Shown: in pieces, positions 17,560 through 25,944 of the stretch | Layout: each line of letters starts with the position of its first letter | Numbering within the stretch: the stretch's first letter is position 1 | The notes under the pieces: model-generated | The model's input: the letters and a program-made list of their open reading frames with translations, nothing else | Told to the model about the DNA's origin: nothing | Databases searched by the model: none | Position numbers and translations under genes: made by a program | Assembly (NCBI GenBank): GCA_017511685.1 | Contig: JAFWJE010000020.1 | Span: 1 to 47,206, forward strand | Length of the DNA stretch: 47,206 bases | Source: Candidatus Saccharimonadota bacterium | GTDB taxonomy: Bacteria > Patescibacteriota > Saccharimonadia > Saccharimonadales > Saccharimonadaceae | Direction: 5' to 3'

Positions 17560-17588
17560 TTGACTTTTTTGGCAAAGTGTGCTAGTAT
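17560..17588 (+). promoter_or_regulatory. Promoter of the 47-residue ORF, with shared GGTATTGAC context
   Basis: TTGACT (17560-17565), 17-nt spacer, TAGTAT (17583-17588). The -35 is embedded in AAAAGGTATTGAC, a context also seen at 17928 and 45840. The AT-rich leader runs about 72 nt to the ATG. Confidence 0.6.
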
Positions 17589-17666
17589 AGAAGATAGTTA
17601 GATAATAAAATAAACAATCTAACAAATAAATATAAAAATAATAAACAAAAAGGAGTGCTTATAAGT

Positions 17667-17810
17667 ATGAGCAGAAATAGTAACGTAATGAGCTTTCAAG
17701 CTCTCCCTGGTGAAGGACAATATACAGGGAGCAAAGGGGAAATTAGCGCGGAGGCGAAGGAAAGGATAACGCGCTTTATGGGTAGAGTTGCGACTAGCGA
17801 ACTGATGTAA
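17667..17810 (+). CDS. Short ORF, 47 residues, unknown function
   Basis: ATG at 17667 preceded by AAGGAG (17650-17655, 11-nt spacing), stop TAA at 17808-17810. The start reads MSRNSNVMSFQALPGEGQYT, followed by GEISAEAKERITRFMGRVAT and SELM. Hydrophilic, net basic, with one helix-prone stretch; no signal peptide or membrane segment. It has its own promoter and an excellent terminator, so it forms an independent transcript of about 270 nt. The short size and leader of 70 nt also leave room for an RNA function. It immediately precedes the envelope locus. Confidence 0.5.
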   Translation: MSRNSNVMSFQALPGEGQYTGSKGEISAEAKERITRFMGRVATSELM

Positions 17811-17835
17811 GTCGCTGGCGAACGTTACAACTTAG

Positions 17836-17864
17836 AAAAAACCGAACATATTGTTCGGTTTTTT
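17836..17864 (+). terminator. Rho-independent terminator after the 47-residue ORF
   Basis: ACCGAACA (17841-17848) pairs with TGTTCGGT (17852-17859), extended by five A-T pairs on each side into a T run. Bidirectional in principle. Confidence 0.92.
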
Positions 17865-17935
17865 GGTTTTTAAAGCAGGCTCTAAAGGTTTGTGTTTTAC
17901 GACTTCTAATACTTGATTTTATAAACATAAAGGTA

Positions 17936-17965
17936 TTGACAAAATAGGCGTAAGCGGTATACAAT
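17936..17965 (+). promoter_or_regulatory. Promoter of the envelope operon
   Basis: TTGACA (17936-17941) with TATACA (17958-17963, 16-nt spacer) or TACAAT (17960-17965, 18-nt spacer). It shares the ATAAAGGTATTGAC context with the promoter at 17560. AAAGGT lies before the ATG at 18008. Confidence 0.65.
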
Positions 17966-18007
17966 GAGGAGTAATAAGGTCATTAAATAAAGAGAAAGGT
18001 CACTCTT

Positions 18008-18376
18008 ATGGATAATAAGGATATTAATTTAACGGATGAAGAAACGATAAATTTGTTCGTCGAAGGTTTGATGGATGAAAAAGGCATCAAGCCGGAAAGC
18101 GAACAGATGCGTAAGGACATATTTGATGACCTCAAGACTAAGGTAATGACAGAATTAGACCGTTCCTTAGTGTCGGCTTTGCCAGATGATAAGTTAGAGG
18201 AGCTTTCCAAAGAAGCTGAGGAAAAAGGTCAGTTAGATCCAGAAGTGGTAGCAAAGGCTATAGAAGAAGCCGGTGTAGATGTCGGCGAAGTGGCGGGGGT
18301 AACGATGGCAAAGTTTAGGGAATTATATCTGGGTGAAAATCAAGAATCAGGTGCGGCAGAAGGCGCGGAGGCTTAA
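18008..18376 (+). CDS. Small acidic helical protein, first gene of the envelope locus
   Basis: 122 residues, strongly acidic, predicted all-helical. It has motifs such as EETINLFVEGLMDEKG, KVMTELDRSLVSALPDDKLE and TMAKFRELYLGE. The layout resembles the short DUF5663-like helical proteins of CPR bacteria, but this is a weak impression. There is no signal peptide or membrane segment, so it is probably cytoplasmic. It ends 2 nt before the giant-protein gene, with which it must be co-translated. A role as chaperone or regulator of its large neighbour is only a guess. Confidence 0.6.
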   Translation: MDNKDINLTDEETINLFVEGLMDEKGIKPESEQMRKDIFDDLKTKVMTELDRSLVSALPDDKLEELSKEAEEKGQLDPEVVAKAIEEAGVDVGEVAGVTMAKFRELYLGENQESGAAEGAEA

Positions 18377-18378
18377 AA

Positions 18379-21300
18379 ATGGCAGAGATAATTAAAGGAA
18401 GTAATTCGACCGCCGCGATCGACAAGATTTCTACTGGCGCGAAAATGCAGAATATGGAGCAGCCACAGGCAGATGACCAGCCTGCGGGTGACACGATAAA
18501 AAATGGCGAGAATGTTGACCTTAAGATCGCCACAGCGCTCAGAATGGGCAAAATAGGTAATGACCTAGTAGACCTTGAGGGGGGATTGCCAAAGACAAAC
18601 ATTATTTTGACCGAGATGGATAAGACTAACGCTAATAATATGATTAATACGGCGGTAGAACAGAAGATGGCGGAAAAGCCATTTCGTGGCGCTGGGTTTA
18701 TCAAGAACAACCCGATTATCAAACCGATATTGGTGGCTTATTGGCGGACGAAAGCTGCTAGTGCAGTAAAGAGTAGCGGTGATGCCAGCGCAGCGTTTTC
18801 TGCGTTAAAATTGGAAAATAGTGCTAATATGCCAGTTTCTGGTAATGAATACGCTGAGAGGAACGCGCGGTTAGCCTTAGAGGAATCTGGGTTTGCTGAC
18901 AAGGTGACCTCGGAGGATAGCGTGGCGCTTGCTGAGGGTGAGAAAGTGGAGAAAGTTAGTGATCCGTTGACGAAGGAAGTAAATGGCGCGCTAAAAGACC
19001 TGTTTACGGAAATGCAAGCTGCATATAAATATGATGGTCAGGAGCAAGCGGAAGCGGTCAATACTGCACGGAATAATTTTAACGAGCAACTTAAAAAATG
19101 GCAGAATGCGGGAACGTTTGGTGAAAACAAAGCCAATGTTTCTAGTAGATTCTGGGATAATAAAGTTGTGCAGTTTTTAGCTGGCGACCATAGCAAAAAG
19201 AGTATTACAGAACTTGATGGATTAAAGAAGGCCGCAGAAGGAGTTGAGCAATTAGCAAAAGCAAATAAGGCTAATAGCGAGTTTTCTAAGGCAGTGGAAA
19301 AATACTTTGATGATGGGAACGTATCGCTGTATAGCGCTTCAATGAAGGAAGGCTTGAATACTAAGCAAAAAGTTGATAATGTAGCAAACGCCGTAAGAGT
19401 AGGTGGCGTAGTAGGTGGTATCGCAAGTTATTTCCTCTCGTCTGGTGCGAGAAAAGACATTAAAGGCGCGGTGGCGAAAGAGGCGGCCGGGAAAGCAGTT
19501 GGTAATGCGGTAATAGATAGTGCATTAACTGGCGCTGGCGCTGGTGCAGTGGCTGGTGCGGTGTTTGGTGCGCTACGGGGTGCTAGAAATGCTAATGTGA
19601 AAATGTCCAAGGCGGAAATCAAGGATGCGACTTCTGGTGAAGCGATTATGACTGCTGAGGAAAGAGCAGAGAAGGCAGCAGCTGAAGCAAAAGCGGCAGC
19701 TGAGGCGGCAGCATTGGAGAATGCCGAGCAGGGGGCAGATGCGGATACTGATGCGGCCGGCGAAGATGCGGATACTAAGGATGCCGATGTGGAGCCGGCG
19801 GGGGAGCAGCAAAATGTAGATGAGCAGAATGCTTCGGAGCAGCAAAATGCAGCGCCGCAAGATAAGAAAATTAAGATTGCGGCGATAATGGCAAAAGTCG
19901 GAAAGTTTAGCAGATGGGCACATGGTGAGGAAATTAGTGAAAGAGCTAGAAAGAAAGCAGAAGAGAATGGTGAAGATGCTCCAAAAACTCGTCTTGAGAA
20001 AATCAATGAGAAACGCGGTAGGAGAAACGCAAAAGAACTTTATGATGCGCTAGAGAGTGGTATGCTGCTTTCAGAGTTGGCCGGTTCGGAAAACAAAGAA
20101 GCGTTTATTGAGAGATTGAAAGAAATGGGGGAGAAAAATGATGGTAGCTTAGAGATTGTTGTGAAGGGCATTAAGGAGCGCGTTGAAGGCGCGAAAGGTC
20201 TTAACAACGATGAGCGAAAATCGTTGACTGCTATAATGAATAAGATGATGAAGGGAGAGCTGGATAAAGGTGAGACTTCTAGAATCTTTGAAATGGTAAT
20301 GAGTGATGATTTCAAGAACAATTTGAAGAAAGATTTGAGAGATACCATTATTGACATTAGGGCTAGGAATAAAGTTTCTAAAGATTTGAAGATTGACCTA
20401 ATTAGATATTCAGAAGGGAATGTCGATAAGGAGAATAATTTACTCCGCGAGAAGATGGTGGAAGCCAATAAGCTGCTTGGCGAAGATGCCGTGAAAGCAA
20501 GTGGTGATGCTGATGTGGATGCGAGAGTGAAAGAACTGACTGAAATGCAGAAAGATGTTAAGAGTGAGCAAGGCTGGTTTGTGGTGCGTAATATTATGGT
20601 TGATACCGTAATTGGTGCGACTGCTGGTGGTGCGACTGGTGCGATTATCGGTGCGGTGAGAGGCTACATCGCGGTGAATAAGGCGGCGAGTGCTGAAAAT
20701 GCCGGCGGCGAGAATAATACTACAGATAGTGGAGCAGCTGAAAATAACAGTTCGGTAGAAGCTAGCGAGGCGAATGGTGCTGGTGCTACAAACGGGGAGA
20801 GTGTGGCTGGTGAGAATGTTGGTAATAGTGCTGGCGCAAATGGTGAGATGCTGAGTACGGAAACTCCGCCGAGGTTTGTGGACGAGGATGGCAACGGCGT
20901 CTATGAACTGAAAGTTGGTGACGAAACTCTAGTGACCGAGGGTGATGGAGGAATCTCCTTTGACCCAGAAACTGGCAAGATGTCAGAGAGCAGTATGGAA
21001 TTGTTGCGCTCAAGAGGCATTGAAGTCAATGAGACGTTTGAAACTACAACAGCACATGGCGCAATCAAGACCGAAGGAGTTTACGAATACTTCAAGAACA
21101 CTAATACCGAGGCCTACGAGGCTGGAATCGAAACTGGTAATAAATTAACAGACATCGACATCAAGAGTTACGTATCGGCAGAAGGTGCAAATCGTGCAGT
21201 AGACATCAGCCAAGTGAGTGTTGAGAATGACGGTGATTTGGTATTCCAGATAGCACCTAAAGGTGAGAATATTGATGTTGATAGCCTTCAAGTAGTATTG

Positions 21301-23124
21301 TCGGCCAATAAAGAACTTGGCGATGTAGGCGTAGTGCTTGACGTGGCAGCAGATGGAACTGTGACGGTGCCGGCTGGTTCGGTGGCGGCAAGTATGTTTA
21401 CTGAAGGTAACTTTAGCGGTGGAGCGCTTCGGGTGGTTCAGGACGCTGGCGAAGGCGGCGGATTTAACGTACTAGGTACCAGCTTTGGGTCTGGCAATTT
21501 GACCGAAGTTGGTTTCATTAATCCAACCGAAAAGACTGAATACTTCTACAATATCGGCGACGCCGTAATTGACAAGACGGGCATTGATGTTGATGCAGAT
21601 TTGGCGAGAGTCGGTTTGCAATCGGTGAGAGACAGCGGGCCAGTAGAATATAATTACAATCCAATTAATGTAGATGAAAATGGATATGTAAATGGGCAAC
21701 CAGTGAGTGATTATATGAATGGGCGGCCGACGACATTCGATCCGGAAAACGGTCGTGACTTTATTTCAGTAAATGGTGCAGCAAGTGACAACGGCTACGA
21801 ATTAATCCAGATGCCACATCGTGAGGGTAATTATAGCGAGGCACTGGATCCGTTCTTGTCAGATAATAAGGATAGCAATAATCTACTTGGTGAGAACTTG
21901 GTGCGGCAGATGATTGACCCAGACCGTGAAATGACGCCGGAGCAGGCCGATGCAGCGTTTATTGAAGCGCTTAATAGTGGTAGACTTTCTACTAACCAAG
22001 TGATTAGCCACATTTTGGAAGCCAAGGGTAATTCGCCAGAAGGTATCGTGGCTCTTAGAGCAAAGATGGGCGGATTTGAATGGGATATTGATAATGATGG
22101 TGATCCAGAGCTGATTGATACTCAAGAGGAAATTAACGCGTTAGCCGATATGCTAAAGAATTCGGCAGAGCCAGAAGGATACAGCGCGTTTGTTAATGAT
22201 ACCTATGAAGTATTCTTAAATAAGATGAATGGTGGCGAAGTTCGCGTAGTAAATTATGCGGATACGCCATATAGATATACGGAGCTTGGGTTTATTAATT
22301 CTGAGAATAATATCTTAAGGCTATTTTCTAGGAAACGGACGGCTTGCTCAGGGCTGGGCTTTGAATTCTTAGATAAAGATGGTCATTCGATTTATGACGA
22401 GGATACACTTCGGAAGATTTATCATATTCCAAGAGGTGAGAGAATCACGATGATTTCTGACCGTTTGGAATGTGGTGACGATACGCAGCTGACGGTACAG
22501 ACGGCGTTTGAGCGGGTGCGGTCTAGCAAGACTAATCCGGAGGGGACCAAGACTAGTCCAGAAGGTACCACTAAGACTAATCCGGAGGGAACTAAAACTA
22601 ACCCAGAGGGAACCAAAACTGATCCAGAGGGAACTAAGACCGAAAGTGAAACCACTAAGACTGACCCAGAAGTAACTAAGACTGATCCGGAGGACACGAA
22701 AACTGAAAGCGAGAAGACTAGCGAAAAAACTACCGAGAAAACCACTGAGAAAACTGGGCAAGAAATCGTGGGCAAGGGCGACAATCCACATGCTGGCGAT
22801 GAGACCGATTTGCCGGTAACGCCACCGGGTGAGGACTCATATATCCAGCCGACCGAGGATAATCATGTTAACCCGAATATTGAGCCAGGTACTGAAGTAA
22901 CAACACCACCAACTGATAATTCGTCGTTTGACAGCCTTGATAATGGTACGGCTACTGGGACAGATACGACGTCAACCTACAGTACGGATACTTCAGGCTG
23001 GCAAGGTGATACGTCCGGTGAAGGTAATGAACAGTCGCTGGTAACACAGGCAAACCCTGGTAGTGCGGAGGACAATACGCCGCCCCAAAGTAATGAAGAA
23101 TTAGCAAGTGCATTTAATAATTAA
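18379..23124 (+). CDS. Giant lineage-specific protein with glycine-zipper segments, EF-hand-like loop and PEGT repeats
   Basis: 1581 residues; not recognised. No signal peptide. Two Gly/Ala-rich membrane-active segments lie at about 341-405 (VGGVVGGIASYFLSS; GAGAGAVAGAVFGALRG) and 738-768 (TVIGATAGGATGAIIGAV). They are separated by an Ala/Glu/Asp/Gln-rich low-complexity part (424-497) and a long helical domain. Residues 768-828 are Asn/Gly/Ala/Glu-rich. From about 830 the protein is beta-rich. DIDNDGDPELID (about 1236) matches an EF-hand-type calcium loop. Residues about 1384-1465 are K-T-(N/S/D)-P-E-G-T repeats, followed by a Thr/Ser/Asp-rich tail. The beta-rich half and tail look extracytoplasmic. 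Export route unknown. Confidence 0.72.
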   Translation: MAEIIKGSNSTAAIDKISTGAKMQNMEQPQADDQPAGDTIKNGENVDLKIATALRMGKIGNDLVDLEGGLPKTNIILTEMDKTNANNMINTAVEQKMAEKPFRGAGFIKNNPIIKPILVAYWRTKAASAVKSSGDASAAFSALKLENSANMPVSGNEYAERNARLALEESGFADKVTSEDSVALAEGEKVEKVSDPLTKEVNGALKDLFTEMQAAYKYDGQEQAEAVNTARNNFNEQLKKWQNAGTFGENKANVSSRFWDNKVVQFLAGDHSKKSITELDGLKKAAEGVEQLAKANKANSEFSKAVEKYFDDGNVSLYSASMKEGLNTKQKVDNVANAVRVGGVVGGIASYFLSSGARKDIKGAVAKEAAGKAVGNAVIDSALTGAGAGAVAGAVFGALRGARNANVKMSKAEIKDATSGEAIMTAEERAEKAAAEAKAAAEAAALENAEQGADADTDAAGEDADTKDADVEPAGEQQNVDEQNASEQQNAAPQDKKIKIAAIMAKVGKFSRWAHGEEISERARKKAEENGEDAPKTRLEKINEKRGRRNAKELYDALESGMLLSELAGSENKEAFIERLKEMGEKNDGSLEIVVKGIKERVEGAKGLNNDERKSLTAIMNKMMKGELDKGETSRIFEMVMSDDFKNNLKKDLRDTIIDIRARNKVSKDLKIDLIRYSEGNVDKENNLLREKMVEANKLLGEDAVKASGDADVDARVKELTEMQKDVKSEQGWFVVRNIMVDTVIGATAGGATGAIIGAVRGYIAVNKAASAENAGGENNTTDSGAAENNSSVEASEANGAGATNGESVAGENVGNSAGANGEMLSTETPPRFVDEDGNGVYELKVGDETLVTEGDGGISFDPETGKMSESSMELLRSRGIEVNETFETTTAHGAIKTEGVYEYFKNTNTEAYEAGIETGNKLTDIDIKSYVSAEGANRAVDISQVSVENDGDLVFQIAPKGENIDVDSLQVVLSANKELGDVGVVLDVAADGTVTVPAGSVAASMFTEGNFSGGALRVVQDAGEGGGFNVLGTSFGSGNLTEVGFINPTEKTEYFYNIGDAVIDKTGIDVDADLARVGLQSVRDSGPVEYNYNPINVDENGYVNGQPVSDYMNGRPTTFDPENGRDFISVNGAASDNGYELIQMPHREGNYSEALDPFLSDNKDSNNLLGENLVRQMIDPDREMTPEQADAAFIEALNSGRLSTNQVISHILEAKGNSPEGIVALRAKMGGFEWDIDNDGDPELIDTQEEINALADMLKNSAEPEGYSAFVNDTYEVFLNKMNGGEVRVVNYADTPYRYTELGFINSENNILRLFSRKRTACSGLGFEFLDKDGHSIYDEDTLRKIYHIPRGERITMISDRLECGDDTQLTVQTAFERVRSSKTNPEGTKTSPEGTTKTNPEGTKTNPEGTKTDPEGTKTESETTKTDPEVTKTDPEDTKTESEKTSEKTTEKTTEKTGQEIVGKGDNPHAGDETDLPVTPPGEDSYIQPTEDNHVNPNIEPGTEVTTPPTDNSSFDSLDNGTATGTDTTSTYSTDTSGWQGDTSGEGNEQSLVTQANPGSAEDNTPPQSNEELASAFNN
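22528..22770 (+). repeat. Coding repeat (K-T-x-P-E-G-T units) in the giant protein
   Basis: About eight degenerate 18-21-nt units of the type ACTAAGACTAATCCGGAGGG, giving KTNPEGT, KTDPEGT and KTESE variants, then SEKTTEKT units. Confidence 0.8.
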
Positions 23125-23139
23125 AAGAAAGGAGAAAAA

Positions 23140-24654
23140 ATGAAAATCAGCTTTAAAAGAATCATTATTCTACCAGTAGCGATTTTAGCTTTTATCTTTG
23201 CATTCATGCAATTTAAGAGCGCGTCGGCGGCGGAAGTGGATTCGTGGGGGCCGCAAGATAGGGAAACTTTCTTGTGGGATAAACCGGCAACGTATCGGAC
23301 GTTTAACTCGATTACGGATAATCCAGTGCTGGGCGACGAGAGAAACTTTGTGCGCGTTAAGGAAGTTGGCGTGGACGGTCCACATTACGATACGGTGGAT
23401 GTGGTACCAGGTAAAGAATATGAGGTGTATATTTATTACCATAACAATGCCTCGGCGAGCTTGAATGCAAGTGGCAAGGGGATTGCTGACAATGTAAGGT
23501 TGGCAACTAAGCTACCAGAACGGCTAGAAGCTGGCCAGACTGGTGTAGTTTACGGTACGATTTCCTCAACTAACACAAAGCCAGAGAGTGTATGGGATAC
23601 GGCTTATCTTAAAGCTACCGATACGGTATTCTTAAGATACGTTTGGGATTCGGCGACGATTCATAATGCTGGTACAGCGAACGGTGCAATTCTGGACGCC
23701 AATGCGCTATTTTCTGAAGAAGGCGCAAAGTTAGCCTATAATTTAGAGAGAGCCGACAATGGCGAAAGTGCTTGGGGAATGGTTCCAGGCTGTAATGAAT
23801 ATGCTGGGTATGTAACTTATCGGGTAAAAGCTGATCAGCCAGGATTTGGTGTAGAAAAAGAGGTGTCGGCGGAAAACAAGAATCTTTTCGCAGATAATAT
23901 TACAACTACTCCGGGCGCAGTGCTAGATTTTAAGATTTTCTACAAAAACTCTGGAACCACGGCGCAAAGTGCAGTAACTATGTATGATATTATGCCGGAT
24001 GGTATGGAATATGTGGCTGGTTCGACCTTTGTAAAAACCACGGACGATCCAACTGGCAAATATGTTAGCGATGGTCTATTCAACGGTGGAATAATTATTG
24101 GCGATTTTGATGCTGGTGAGGAAGCGACGGTAACTTATAAAGCAAAGATTCGCGATGATATTAATAAGTTCCCATGCGGGTCAACGACTGTTTATAACGA
24201 GTCCTCTACTGCTACGGCAAACGGTACAATTACGGATAAAGCGAGAATTATAGTAGTGCGCGAGTGTACAACCAACACTCCGAAAGAGTTGCCAACGACT
24301 GGTCCGGGTGAAATTATCTTAGCAGCGGGTATCGTAGTGGTGATTATCGGCGGTGGGATTTATTTCTACCATTCGCGCAAGATGTTAAAGAAGGCTACTT
24401 CAGCGGCTGGCAGTAGTGCTGATGGTAGCGTAAGCGACAGTGCTAGCAGTAGCGTTAGCGACGACATCAATGCGGACGATTTTATGAAACAAGCTCCAAC
24501 TCAGGGAAATGAAAACACTTCTACTCCTTTGGAAAATGAAAGTAGTGCAGCTTTAGAAAATGAGAATGCGGCGCCAGTTTCAACAACTTCAACTCCTCAG
24601 GACGATAAGGGCGATATTGTTAAAGATAGCATCCAAAACAATCCAAGCGCTTAA
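23140..24654 (+). CDS. Secreted DUF11-type envelope protein with internal LPTTG-TM and long C-terminal tail
   Basis: 504 residues. A signal peptide (KISFKRIIILPVAILAFIFA, ending near SASA at about 30). Residues 30-245 are a beta-rich extracellular domain. Residues about 250-345 match DUF11 (VLDFKIFYKNSG, YDIMPDGMEYVAGST, GEEATVTYKAKI). LPTTG is at 384-388, followed by a TM helix (about 391-410) and basic HSRKMLKK, then a Ser/Asn/Glu-rich tail of about 90 residues. A sortase signal would end shortly after the basic residues, so the tail is unusual. RBS AAAGGAG lies 15 nt after the giant-protein stop, so both are in one operon. Likely a cell-surface structural or adhesion protein. Confidence 0.75.
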   Translation: MKISFKRIIILPVAILAFIFAFMQFKSASAAEVDSWGPQDRETFLWDKPATYRTFNSITDNPVLGDERNFVRVKEVGVDGPHYDTVDVVPGKEYEVYIYYHNNASASLNASGKGIADNVRLATKLPERLEAGQTGVVYGTISSTNTKPESVWDTAYLKATDTVFLRYVWDSATIHNAGTANGAILDANALFSEEGAKLAYNLERADNGESAWGMVPGCNEYAGYVTYRVKADQPGFGVEKEVSAENKNLFADNITTTPGAVLDFKIFYKNSGTTAQSAVTMYDIMPDGMEYVAGSTFVKTTDDPTGKYVSDGLFNGGIIIGDFDAGEEATVTYKAKIRDDINKFPCGSTTVYNESSTATANGTITDKARIIVVRECTTNTPKELPTTGPGEIILAAGIVVVIIGGGIYFYHSRKMLKKATSAAGSSADGSVSDSASSSVSDDINADDFMKQAPTQGNENTSTPLENESSAALENENAAPVSTTSTPQDDKGDIVKDSIQNNPSA

Positions 24655-24663
24655 AGAGGTAAA

Positions 24664-25944
24664 ATGTCAAAGCGGACTTTGACGGTAATGGAGGGGAGGG
24701 AAGAAAACTCTCAGCTAGTGGCCGACTTAGAGAAGGAGGCGAAAAAAGCTGGCTGGGGGTTTTTGAACCTTGCTAAAATTAATTCGGACAAAATTGCAAG
24801 GTGCGATTTTGATGACACTCCTTTAGATTATATAGTGTTTCGTGAGTTGTCTTTGAATAATTATCATGAGACAGAACGGGTCTTTGAGTGGCTGAAAAAA
24901 GAGGGGAAAGTTAGTATTAATATTGATATTGCTGGAGCAAGAATGTCGACTTCGGATAAACATTTTCAGCAAGGTTTGTTTTTGATGGATGATAAGCTGG
25001 CGCCGTATGCTTTGCCGACCTTTGAGGCAAAAAGTGAAAAAAATGTGAAGGCGTATCTGGCGTGGAATCGAGTGCATTATCCGATAGTTTTGAAACCGCG
25101 GCGGGGGACGACGGGAGATGGGATTATACTGGTTAGAAACGATAAGGAACTGCACGCGGTTAAGGATTTTAGTGAGTTTTTAATTGAGCAATACGTGGAG
25201 CCGGAATGTGATTTTAGGGTGTTTGTGATTGGCGGAGTGGCAGTGGGAGCGATGCGAAAAGTTGGCGATTTAAAACATCCAGAAAATTTTAAGGTGTGGT
25301 GTGCTGGGAAAGATAAAGTTAGAGAAAAAGACCGGAAAGTGCTAGAAAAATTATCGGAGATAGCGTGTGAAGCAGCGAGTGTTTCACGGATGGAATATGC
25401 CGGGGTAGATATTATGAGGGAAAAAGGCACTGGCAAGTATTATATTTTGGAGACTAATATAGCGGCGAGTTGGACGATTTTTACAGAAGTGACTGGTATT
25501 AATATCCCGAAGCTGGTGATTGAATGGCTGGCTGAAAGAGGTGATTATGAGGAAGGCGTAGTTTCTAAGGAGATGGCGGTTTCTTCATATATTGATAAAA
25601 GACTGAAATTTATATCCAAAAAAGTACAAAGTGACTACGAGGGGATTTTGAAGGGTAAAAAGGCCTGTCTAGAGCCATACGAGGTGGTTTTTGAACGCGA
25701 TAAACGTAAACATTTAATGGATAGCGGATATTTGTTTGATGAGTTAAAAAAGGCTTACTGTGAGGCTGTAGATAAGAAAATAAAGGGGAAAGCGATTCTT
25801 AAGTTAGAAATTATGCGCGAGATAGAAAAAATGCCGCTGTCCTGGGCGGGGAATTTTATTGGCCCGGAAGTGGGTGTACTAGAAAATGGGATGATTTTAT
25901 CGGCAATGTGGCTGTATCTGCTTGAAAAATCTACAAAAGTGTGA
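24664..25944 (+). CDS. ATP-grasp ligase of the RimK/LysX-like type
   Basis: 426 residues. The ATP-grasp core is visible: YPIVLKPRRGTTGDGIILV (about 139-157, phosphate-binding Lys and Gly-rich loop), FLIEQYVEPECDFRVFVIGG (adenine-binding hinge), and KYYILETNIAASW with the Glu-x-Asn metal-binding pair. Such ligases join an amino acid or peptide carboxylate to an amine, thiol or hydroxyl. The C-terminal 140 residues are helical and not recognised. It begins 9 nt after the DUF11 gene, with GAGGT as RBS, and is the last gene of the locus. The substrate may be a product of the same operon, but this is inference from position. Confidence 0.75.
   Translation: MSKRTLTVMEGREENSQLVADLEKEAKKAGWGFLNLAKINSDKIARCDFDDTPLDYIVFRELSLNNYHETERVFEWLKKEGKVSINIDIAGARMSTSDKHFQQGLFLMDDKLAPYALPTFEAKSEKNVKAYLAWNRVHYPIVLKPRRGTTGDGIILVRNDKELHAVKDFSEFLIEQYVEPECDFRVFVIGGVAVGAMRKVGDLKHPENFKVWCAGKDKVREKDRKVLEKLSEIACEAASVSRMEYAGVDIMREKGTGKYYILETNIAASWTIFTEVTGINIPKLVIEWLAERGDYEEGVVSKEMAVSSYIDKRLKFISKKVQSDYEGILKGKKACLEPYEVVFERDKRKHLMDSGYLFDELKKAYCEAVDKKIKGKAILKLEIMREIEKMPLSWAGNFIGPEVGVLENGMILSAMWLYLLEKSTKV

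Follow-up and report, generated by a model that had tools for sequence, protein, structure and literature searches.

Saccharibacteria live on other bacteria, and the surface parts with which they make this contact are, to our knowledge, largely unknown apart from type IV pili and the T4SS. It is type IV pili, and not the locus described here, that are the demonstrated host-binding factor (PMC12206443). The other described systems closest to this locus are the DUF11/CLIPPER fibrillar adhesins, for which the published order of the triad is Lys-Asp-Asn (PMC12617251), the sortase-assembled pilins with the related PrgB and antigen I/II Ig domains, and the RimK family of ligases. The locus was studied in the window (i.e., the whole 47,206-nucleotide stretch of DNA that was analysed), where an Rfam search gave no match. 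No mention of it was found in the parts of the Saccharibacteria open-access literature covered by our search, an absence that is not proof.

The initial annotation had described four ORFs (A, B, C, and D, of 122, 1581, 504, and 426 aa) separated by gaps of 2 nt (A-B), 15 nt (B-C), and 9 nt (C-D), all of which were borne out exactly. The features on which the comparison draws are as follows.

17560..17588, + strand: promoter-like site (TTGACT-17-TAGTAT, with TG preceding the second hexamer), a consensus match only, ahead of A0
17667..17810, + strand: A0, a 47-aa ORF starting MSRNSNVMSFQALPGEGQYTG, lying between ileS and A and belonging to a conserved family of small proteins
17836..17864, + strand: terminator-like hairpin of 13 pairs, closing the A0 unit
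17936..17965, + strand: operon promoter-like site (TTGACA-18-TACAAT), sigma-70-like, 11/12, a consensus match only
18008..18376, + strand: gene A, 122 aa, acidic helical protein of DUF5663 type (Pfam matches of orthologues), predicted cytoplasmic
18379..23124, + strand: gene B, 1581 aa, predicted membrane protein with a signal anchor, a long ectodomain, and a stalk
19381..19575, + strand: B aa 335-399, hairpin of two hydrophobic Gly-zipper segments, clear TM in orthologues
20593..20658, + strand: B aa 739-760, third Gly-zipper segment, the predicted exit TM
21820..22479, + strand: B aa 1148-1367, core ectodomain, common to short B proteins and ending at conserved Cys1365
22084..22119, + strand: B aa 1236-1247, EF-hand-like loop DIDNDGDPELID, from the alignment, kept in the long B group
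22527..22709, + strand: PEGT/PEDT repeats of B (TRF array), start of a low-complexity stalk of ~210 aa
23140..24654, + strand: gene C, 504 aa, predicted exported LPxTG protein with two Ig domains
23836..24267, + strand: C aa 233-376, DUF11/CLIPPER (CnaA-like) domain with invariant Lys240, Asp283, and Asn353
24289..24303, + strand: sorting motif LPTTG at C aa 384-388, with a TM helix after it
24664..25944, + strand: gene D, 426 aa, ATP-grasp ligase of RimK-like type, extended at the C-terminus by a region bearing SWxGNF[IL]

The order ileS-A-B-C-(D)-rplU-parA-parB is kept within the genus and across Saccharibacteria. Almost every genome of the genus was found to carry A-B-C, which is also widespread in the class; its single main copy lies at a fixed address, a housekeeping locus between ileS and rplU-parA-parB. 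The A-B-C-(D) arrangement is not due to chance, as it is seen again in dozens of genomes. A second A-B pair stands behind an S1-domain (rpsA-like) gene, at another housekeeping locus and without C or D, and because the pair recurs there A goes with B. The core of the locus is A-B-C, and D is accessory. Conservation of the four-gene order, as first proposed, holds for A-B-C but not for D, which is scattered on the C tree (at least eight changes are forced) and missing from most A-B-C genomes, so its activity is dispensable.

The operon was also said to have its own promoter. A promoter-like site does lie just upstream of A (17936-17965), whereas the site at 17560, where the annotated interval starts, would serve A0. 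This fifth gene, absent from the initial annotation, has promoter-like and terminator-like sites of its own. ORFs of the A0 family were found just upstream of A/B at 47 loci by iterative HMM search; 11 of the 20 relatives searched have one copy per genome (E=2e-16 for the window copy), and the family occurs in genomes lacking D as well.

Gene A of the window had no match to Pfam PF18908 (DUF5663) at E up to 1 and is assigned to this family by orthology, through matches of its aligned orthologues (best 2e-7). No function of DUF5663, and no paper on it, was found in the open-access literature searched.

For gene B, the length of 1581 aa, the Gly-zippers, the EF-hand-like loop, the PEGT repeats, and the absence of an N-terminal signal peptide were all recovered as first described. 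The Gly-zipper segments span aa 335-400 and 739-760; as membrane segments they are marginal in the window protein (best 19-aa hydropathy 1.49) and clear in orthologues (1.5-2.7). Among 70 B orthologues, the positive-inside bias was N-in/C-out in 62 versus 6, which argues for this topology in B. A cytoplasmic N-terminus, an exterior domain, and a low-complexity stalk are predicted from the sequence; hence, of the "two large envelope proteins" of the initial annotation, both B and C are predicted to belong to the envelope, but the N-terminal part of B is predicted to be cytoplasmic. In most B proteins the core ectodomain ends with a C[Gx]xQ motif at the conserved Cys1365. A thioester at C-G-x-Q (cf. 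CGEQ of alpha-2-macroglobulin) was considered and rejected, as the spacing varies (CGQ, CxQ, CGDDTQ). Searches of B against Pfam, NCBIfam, and PHROGs gave no meaningful match. The model of the ectodomain was moderate (pLDDT 69.8), and a fold search with aa 815-1390 returned nothing convincing (Foldseek E 0.05 or worse), and the best match, to VIA, had Z 6.8 and covered an Ig-like stretch; for this reason we claim no adhesin family for B. Across 19 genomes, B was the fastest-evolving protein at the locus, with a mean identity of 20% (54% aligned) compared to 43%, 76%, and 85% for C, parA, and rplU, respectively, in the same genomes.

The claim that C is exported and membrane-anchored is upheld at the level of prediction: the protein has an N-terminal hydrophobic helix (aa 10-26), a DUF11 match above the Pfam cut-off (30.5 versus 24.6 bits), and an LPTTG motif ahead of a C-terminal TM helix (390-423) carrying SRKMLKK. 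The motif [LI]PxTGP was present in 40 of 46 C orthologues, and the window protein scored 12.5 against NCBIfam LPXTG_anchor, below the cut-off of 15.9. Its tail after the LPTTG/TM region is unusually long. The same genome has three sortase (PF04203) matches above cut-off; no sortase was seen among the genes recurring beside C. The C model (pLDDT 82; >95 over most of aa 40-370) best matched Streptococcus sanguinis PilA/PilB, PrgB, RrgB, the C-terminal domains of AgI/II, and the CLIPPER structure 9ifr, the last with Z 11.2 over 117 aligned residues (rmsd 2.4, 20% identity). Residues K240, D283, and N353, in the published triad order, were invariant in all 46 orthologues, with D283 falling within the stretch aligned to 9ifr. 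Domain 2 of C is predicted to carry an isopeptide triad, and the Lys-Asn bond itself is a prediction.

We see about an even chance that the locus encodes an envelope-spanning surface/adhesion complex, for which D would in some lineages be a dedicated modifying ligase. The data behind this reading are the gene conservation, the topology bias, the domains, the isopeptide triad, the catalytic residues of D, and its link to B-C; from there we infer A-B binding, wall attachment, a role in host contact, and both the chemistry of D and what it acts on, with host contact and modification of B or C by D suggested by architecture, topology, and evolution rate. B would be held in the membrane by its signal anchor with the long N-terminal half in the cytoplasm, where A, a small protein, may bind it and act as adaptor or chaperone. 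The exterior half would offer a folded domain, a Ca2+-loop in the long forms, and a conserved single Cys, and the Pro/Thr/Glu-rich stalk would cross the wall and show a variable tip. C would be exported as a wall protein accompanying B, with an intramolecular Lys-Asn isopeptide bond to stiffen it and a sortase to attach it to the wall. A fast-evolving B with a slower Ig-like wall protein C is the pattern expected for a recognition system, and the exterior of B (perhaps with C) may touch the host cell or neighbouring surfaces. D, as a putative cytosolic RimK-type ligase in some lineages, would extend a carboxylate of one of the complex's components with amino acids and could thereby tune the complex. 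The likeliest target would be A or, prior to its export, B, at its cytoplasmic part or its C-terminus.

Alternatively, A-B-C might be a structural envelope module, a wall/membrane tether or a division/morphology scaffold, that serves the cell's own architecture and not host contact, the stalk and the stiff Ig protein spanning the wall and holding the layers together. Its near-universal presence in the genus and wide presence in the class, a main copy that is single and fixed in place among housekeeping genes, duplication of the A-B pair at another housekeeping locus, and the large cytoplasmic part of B all fit such a role. However, one would expect a scaffold to change slowly in evolution, yet B is by far the fastest at the locus, and C resembles adhesins and pilins; we regard this alternative as possible but rather unlikely.

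Turning to D within the surface/adhesion complex, its description as an ATP-grasp ligase is well founded. It scored 64.5 bits against Pfam RimK (PF08443; cut-off 21), a model that all 15 of the 15 D sequences match, and K144, R185, D249, E263, and N265 are invariant. Its score against NCBIfam TIGR00768 (rimK_fam) was 80.1 bits, below the curated cut-off of 143.4, and its best PDB relatives are RimK-type ligases. Judged by these similarities, D is a relative of the RimK family alpha-L-glutamate ligases and is not filed as a member. We looked for such ATP-grasp proteins in unrelated contexts, and instead, of the 21 strong D matches given by 392 class genomes, 17 stood directly behind C and 2 directly behind a second B (19 in all); two strong D-like matches, longer proteins in other contexts (L200, L201), were left out of the D count. 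Divergence of D and C was correlated (rs 0.62, Mantel p 0.001). The D of the window is 53-55% identical to that of distant loci, nearer than its C predicts, which suggests that D has been exchanged between loci. By eye, the C-terminal residues of A, B, and C showed no clear difference with the presence of D. Together with the surface/adhesion complex we offer a more specific and decidedly tentative proposal, unlikely as it may be in full: a RimK-like ligase covalently tags the surface recognition complex of an epibiont (B/C, or A), an amino-acid tailing of a fast-evolving host-contact protein by an exchangeable accessory module of the B-C operon.

Other roles for D are conceivable. Sortases join their substrates to amino groups of cross-bridges, and such bridges can be made by ATP-grasp ligases (e.g., the enterococcal D-Asp ligase); D, lying beside an LPxTG gene, might extend the stem peptides of peptidoglycan, or another wall precursor, by an amino acid and so make the sortase acceptor for C. 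We consider this improbable, as D is closer to RimK/LysX/MptN than to D-Ala-D-Ala ligases, the LPxTG motif of C is retained in genomes with and without D, and the cluster holds no other wall-ligase genes. Quite improbable, too, is a D unrelated to B-C that modifies ribosomal protein L21 (rplU) as RimK modifies S6. D is RimK-like and lies directly upstream of rplU in nearly all cases, but rplU adjoins C also in genomes lacking D, D overlaps or abuts C (-1 to 3 nt) at five loci (L109, L142, L099, L197, and L199), and in one genome (G122, locus L189) it directly follows the second B, 8 nt apart. Moreover, in genome G321 (L199) B-C-D stand together at a different locus without rplU, and D therefore belongs with B-C and not with the ribosomal gene. 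Finally, although graspetide synthetases are RimK-like ATP-grasps, the B stalk repeats (KTNPEGT) are Lys/Thr-rich next to Glu, and the small ORF A0 is nearby, it is very improbable that D works as a maturase of graspetide type, forming ester/amide cross-links in the T/K/E-rich stalk repeats or in A0, given that similar T/E-rich stalks and A0 occur in genomes without D, that D scored only 20.3 bits against TIGR04187 (cut-off 350), and that the long stalk would need modification before export.

Overall, the initial annotation stands as to gene order, the predicted envelope location of B and C, and the tie to an ATP-grasp enzyme, but not as to a four-gene core, and it had overlooked A0. The locus is widely conserved at a fixed ileS-rplU-parAB address and pairs a fast membrane protein with a slower Ig-like wall protein, and D defines a family of RimK-like ligases whose ties are to a surface operon and not to the ribosome. 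The wide spread of the locus suggests that some cultivated, transformable strain has it; if so, its role would be open to direct testing.

Compared with known systems, the locus shares with Saccharibacteria type IV pili (T4P-1/T4P-2) that both are envelope structures conserved in the group with a proposed or shown role at the host surface; the genes are unrelated, and it is for the pili that host binding has been shown by experiment (PMC12206443). C is like the DUF11/CLIPPER fibrillar adhesins (PF01345; 9IFR, PMC12617251) in its DUF11 domain, CnaA-like fold, Lys-Asp-Asn residues, export, and sorting motif, but it has a single DUF11 with a preceding Ig-like domain outside any Pfam family instead of a long tandem stalk, no adhesion domain was identified in it, and it has the conserved gene partners B and A. 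With the sortase-assembled pilins (S. sanguinis PilA/PilB, RrgB, BcpA) and the PrgB/antigen I/II Ig domains, C shares the fold of domain 2 (Z 11-13.5), the tandem Ig arrangement, and the LPxTG anchor. Unlike the pilins, it has a single subunit gene in a cluster without a dedicated sortase, and the pilin Lys motif (YPK, YPKN type) was not found in the window protein; polymerisation of C is unlikely. D shares the ATP-grasp domain and the conserved nucleotide/metal residues with the RimK family (the ligase of ribosomal protein S6 and related alpha-L-glutamate ligases), from which it differs in being longer (about 420 aa), in its SWxGNF[IL] C-terminal extension, in scoring below the rimK_fam cut-off, and in its surface-operon partner. 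A resembles DUF5663 in that 14 of its 24 aligned orthologues match the family and in being small and acidic, and differs in that it is here the gene partner of large B-type membrane proteins, so that the locus supplies DUF5663 with a genomic partner.

The initial annotation had read A to D as a four-gene envelope operon with its own promoter. The four ORFs and their intergenic gaps (2, 15, and 9 nt) were borne out by the window sequence, and the features of this region are as follows:

17667-17810, + strand: A0, a 47-aa ORF between ileS and A, with its own promoter-like site at 17560 and a terminator-like hairpin closing the unit
17936-17965: promoter-like site, 11/12 consensus match
18008-18376, + strand: A, 122 aa
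18379-23124, + strand: B, 1581 aa
23140-24654, + strand: C, 504 aa
24664-25944, + strand: D, 426 aa

The promoter-like site of the operon is the one at 17936-17965; the site at 17560 is part of another unit (A0). A0 represents a genuine protein family, because an iterative HMM search placed it just upstream of A/B in 47 loci and it was present as one copy in 11 of the 20 relatives searched (window copy, E=2e-16).

Gene order proved to be conserved in Saccharibacteria. The order ileS-A-B-C-rplU-parA-parB recurs in same-genus genomes, where C was found in every cassette-bearing locus and 25 loci had an identifiable A ahead of C; those without A were mostly contig ends. A profile scan of GTDB genomes detected 317 C-encoding loci; nearly all of the best 80 were labelled Saccharibacteria, and many had the same neighbourhood. 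Full-length C occurs throughout the class, and matches in other Patescibacteria were mostly partial. Most same-genus genomes also carry, at another site, a further C paralogue that is more divergent, with about 29-39% identity (e.g., loci L070 and L071).

As initially described, B has no signal peptide and carries glycine-zipper segments, an EF-hand-like loop (conserved in long B), and PEGT repeats. Versions of B range from about 500 to 1662 aa. In most of them, an acidic N-terminus and one to three TM segments precede an ectodomain, which usually terminates at a single Cys (C[Gx]xQ and variants); beyond it come a low-complexity stalk and a short tail at the C-terminus. Profile comparison finds the core ectodomain (window aa 1148-1367) in both long and short B (20 loci). 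An N-in/C-out topology is predicted, since Lys/Arg residues border the TM on its N-terminal side in 62/70 (mean 5.1 vs 1.5). B is also the fastest-evolving gene of the locus, with a mean identity of 19.8% compared to 43% for C, 76% for parA, and 85.5% for rplU (19 genomes). Its AlphaFold model was moderate (pLDDT 69.8), and fold searches with it returned no convincing structural match.

A, a small acidic protein encoded immediately ahead of B, is assigned to DUF5663 by orthology. In three genomes, an A-B-like pair lacking C and D is also present at a second locus, where it follows an S1-domain (rpsA-like) gene; A is thus most probably a partner of B in the cytoplasm. At these second loci (L213, L214, and L215), the DUF5663 ORF precedes a large acidic protein of 547-986 aa, which in L214 also has a glycine-zipper-like segment. 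A more distant, third DUF5663 copy, perhaps the ancestral one, lies between infB-like and fmt-like genes in several genomes (L215-L219).

In the AlphaFold model of C (pLDDT 81.7), a helix at the N-terminus is followed by two Ig-like domains spanning aa 36-376, then by a TM helix and a tail predicted to be disordered. Structural matches to domain 2 include sortase pilins (S. sanguinis PilA, Z 13.5; BcpA, 12.9; RrgB, 11.8) and, at Z 11.2, the crystal structure of CLIPPER/DUF11 (9ifr); domains 1 and 2 jointly match tandem Ig regions of PrgB and AgI/II. Lys240, Asp283, and Asn353 are invariant in 46/46, in the order published for DUF11 (PMC12617251), which makes an intramolecular isopeptide bond likely. 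The genome encodes three sortases.

D is a RimK-like ATP-grasp protein that retains every catalytic residue and is extended at its C-terminus by a region carrying SWxGNF[IL]. When 392 genomes of the class were searched, the strong matches (E <= 4e-62) numbered 21, and a gap separated them from generic RimK (4e-27). Rather than occurring in unrelated contexts, 19 of the 21 lay behind C or B: 17 immediately followed C, and two immediately followed the second B of tandem A-B-C-A-B-D cassettes. Together with L199, where B-C-D lie between penicillin-binding-protein-like and rsmD-like genes without ileS or rplU, this places D in the B-C unit and not with rplU. In the tandem cassettes L037 and L189, the first B is short and the second long, an A-B duplication. 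On the whole, D and C are inherited together (Mantel p 0.001), and D has a patchy distribution on the C tree, with 12 changes, of which at least 8 are forced. The window D has been exchanged between loci, as it shares 53-55% identity with the D proteins of loci at which C reaches only 36-40%. D is an accessory, exchangeable part of the locus. D-like ATP-grasp proteins of greater length (655 and 773 aa; L200 2-1966 and L201 6240-8561) occur in unrelated contexts, in L201 adjoining another RimK-like gene, and probably belong to a different system.

The best-supported reading of A-B-C-(D) is an envelope-spanning surface complex, in which A would be the cytoplasmic adaptor, B a membrane-anchored, stalked protein, C a wall-anchored Ig protein, and D an optional modifying ligase. 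We infer a role in host contact because the group is epibiotic, B evolves fast, and the C fold is adhesin-like. The demonstrated host-binding structures remain type IV pili (PMC12206443), and targeted term searches of selected Saccharibacteria papers, PMC10633639 among them, found no description of the locus. C and D are variants of protein types already known; for B and the A-B pairing, DUF5663 is the only known family.
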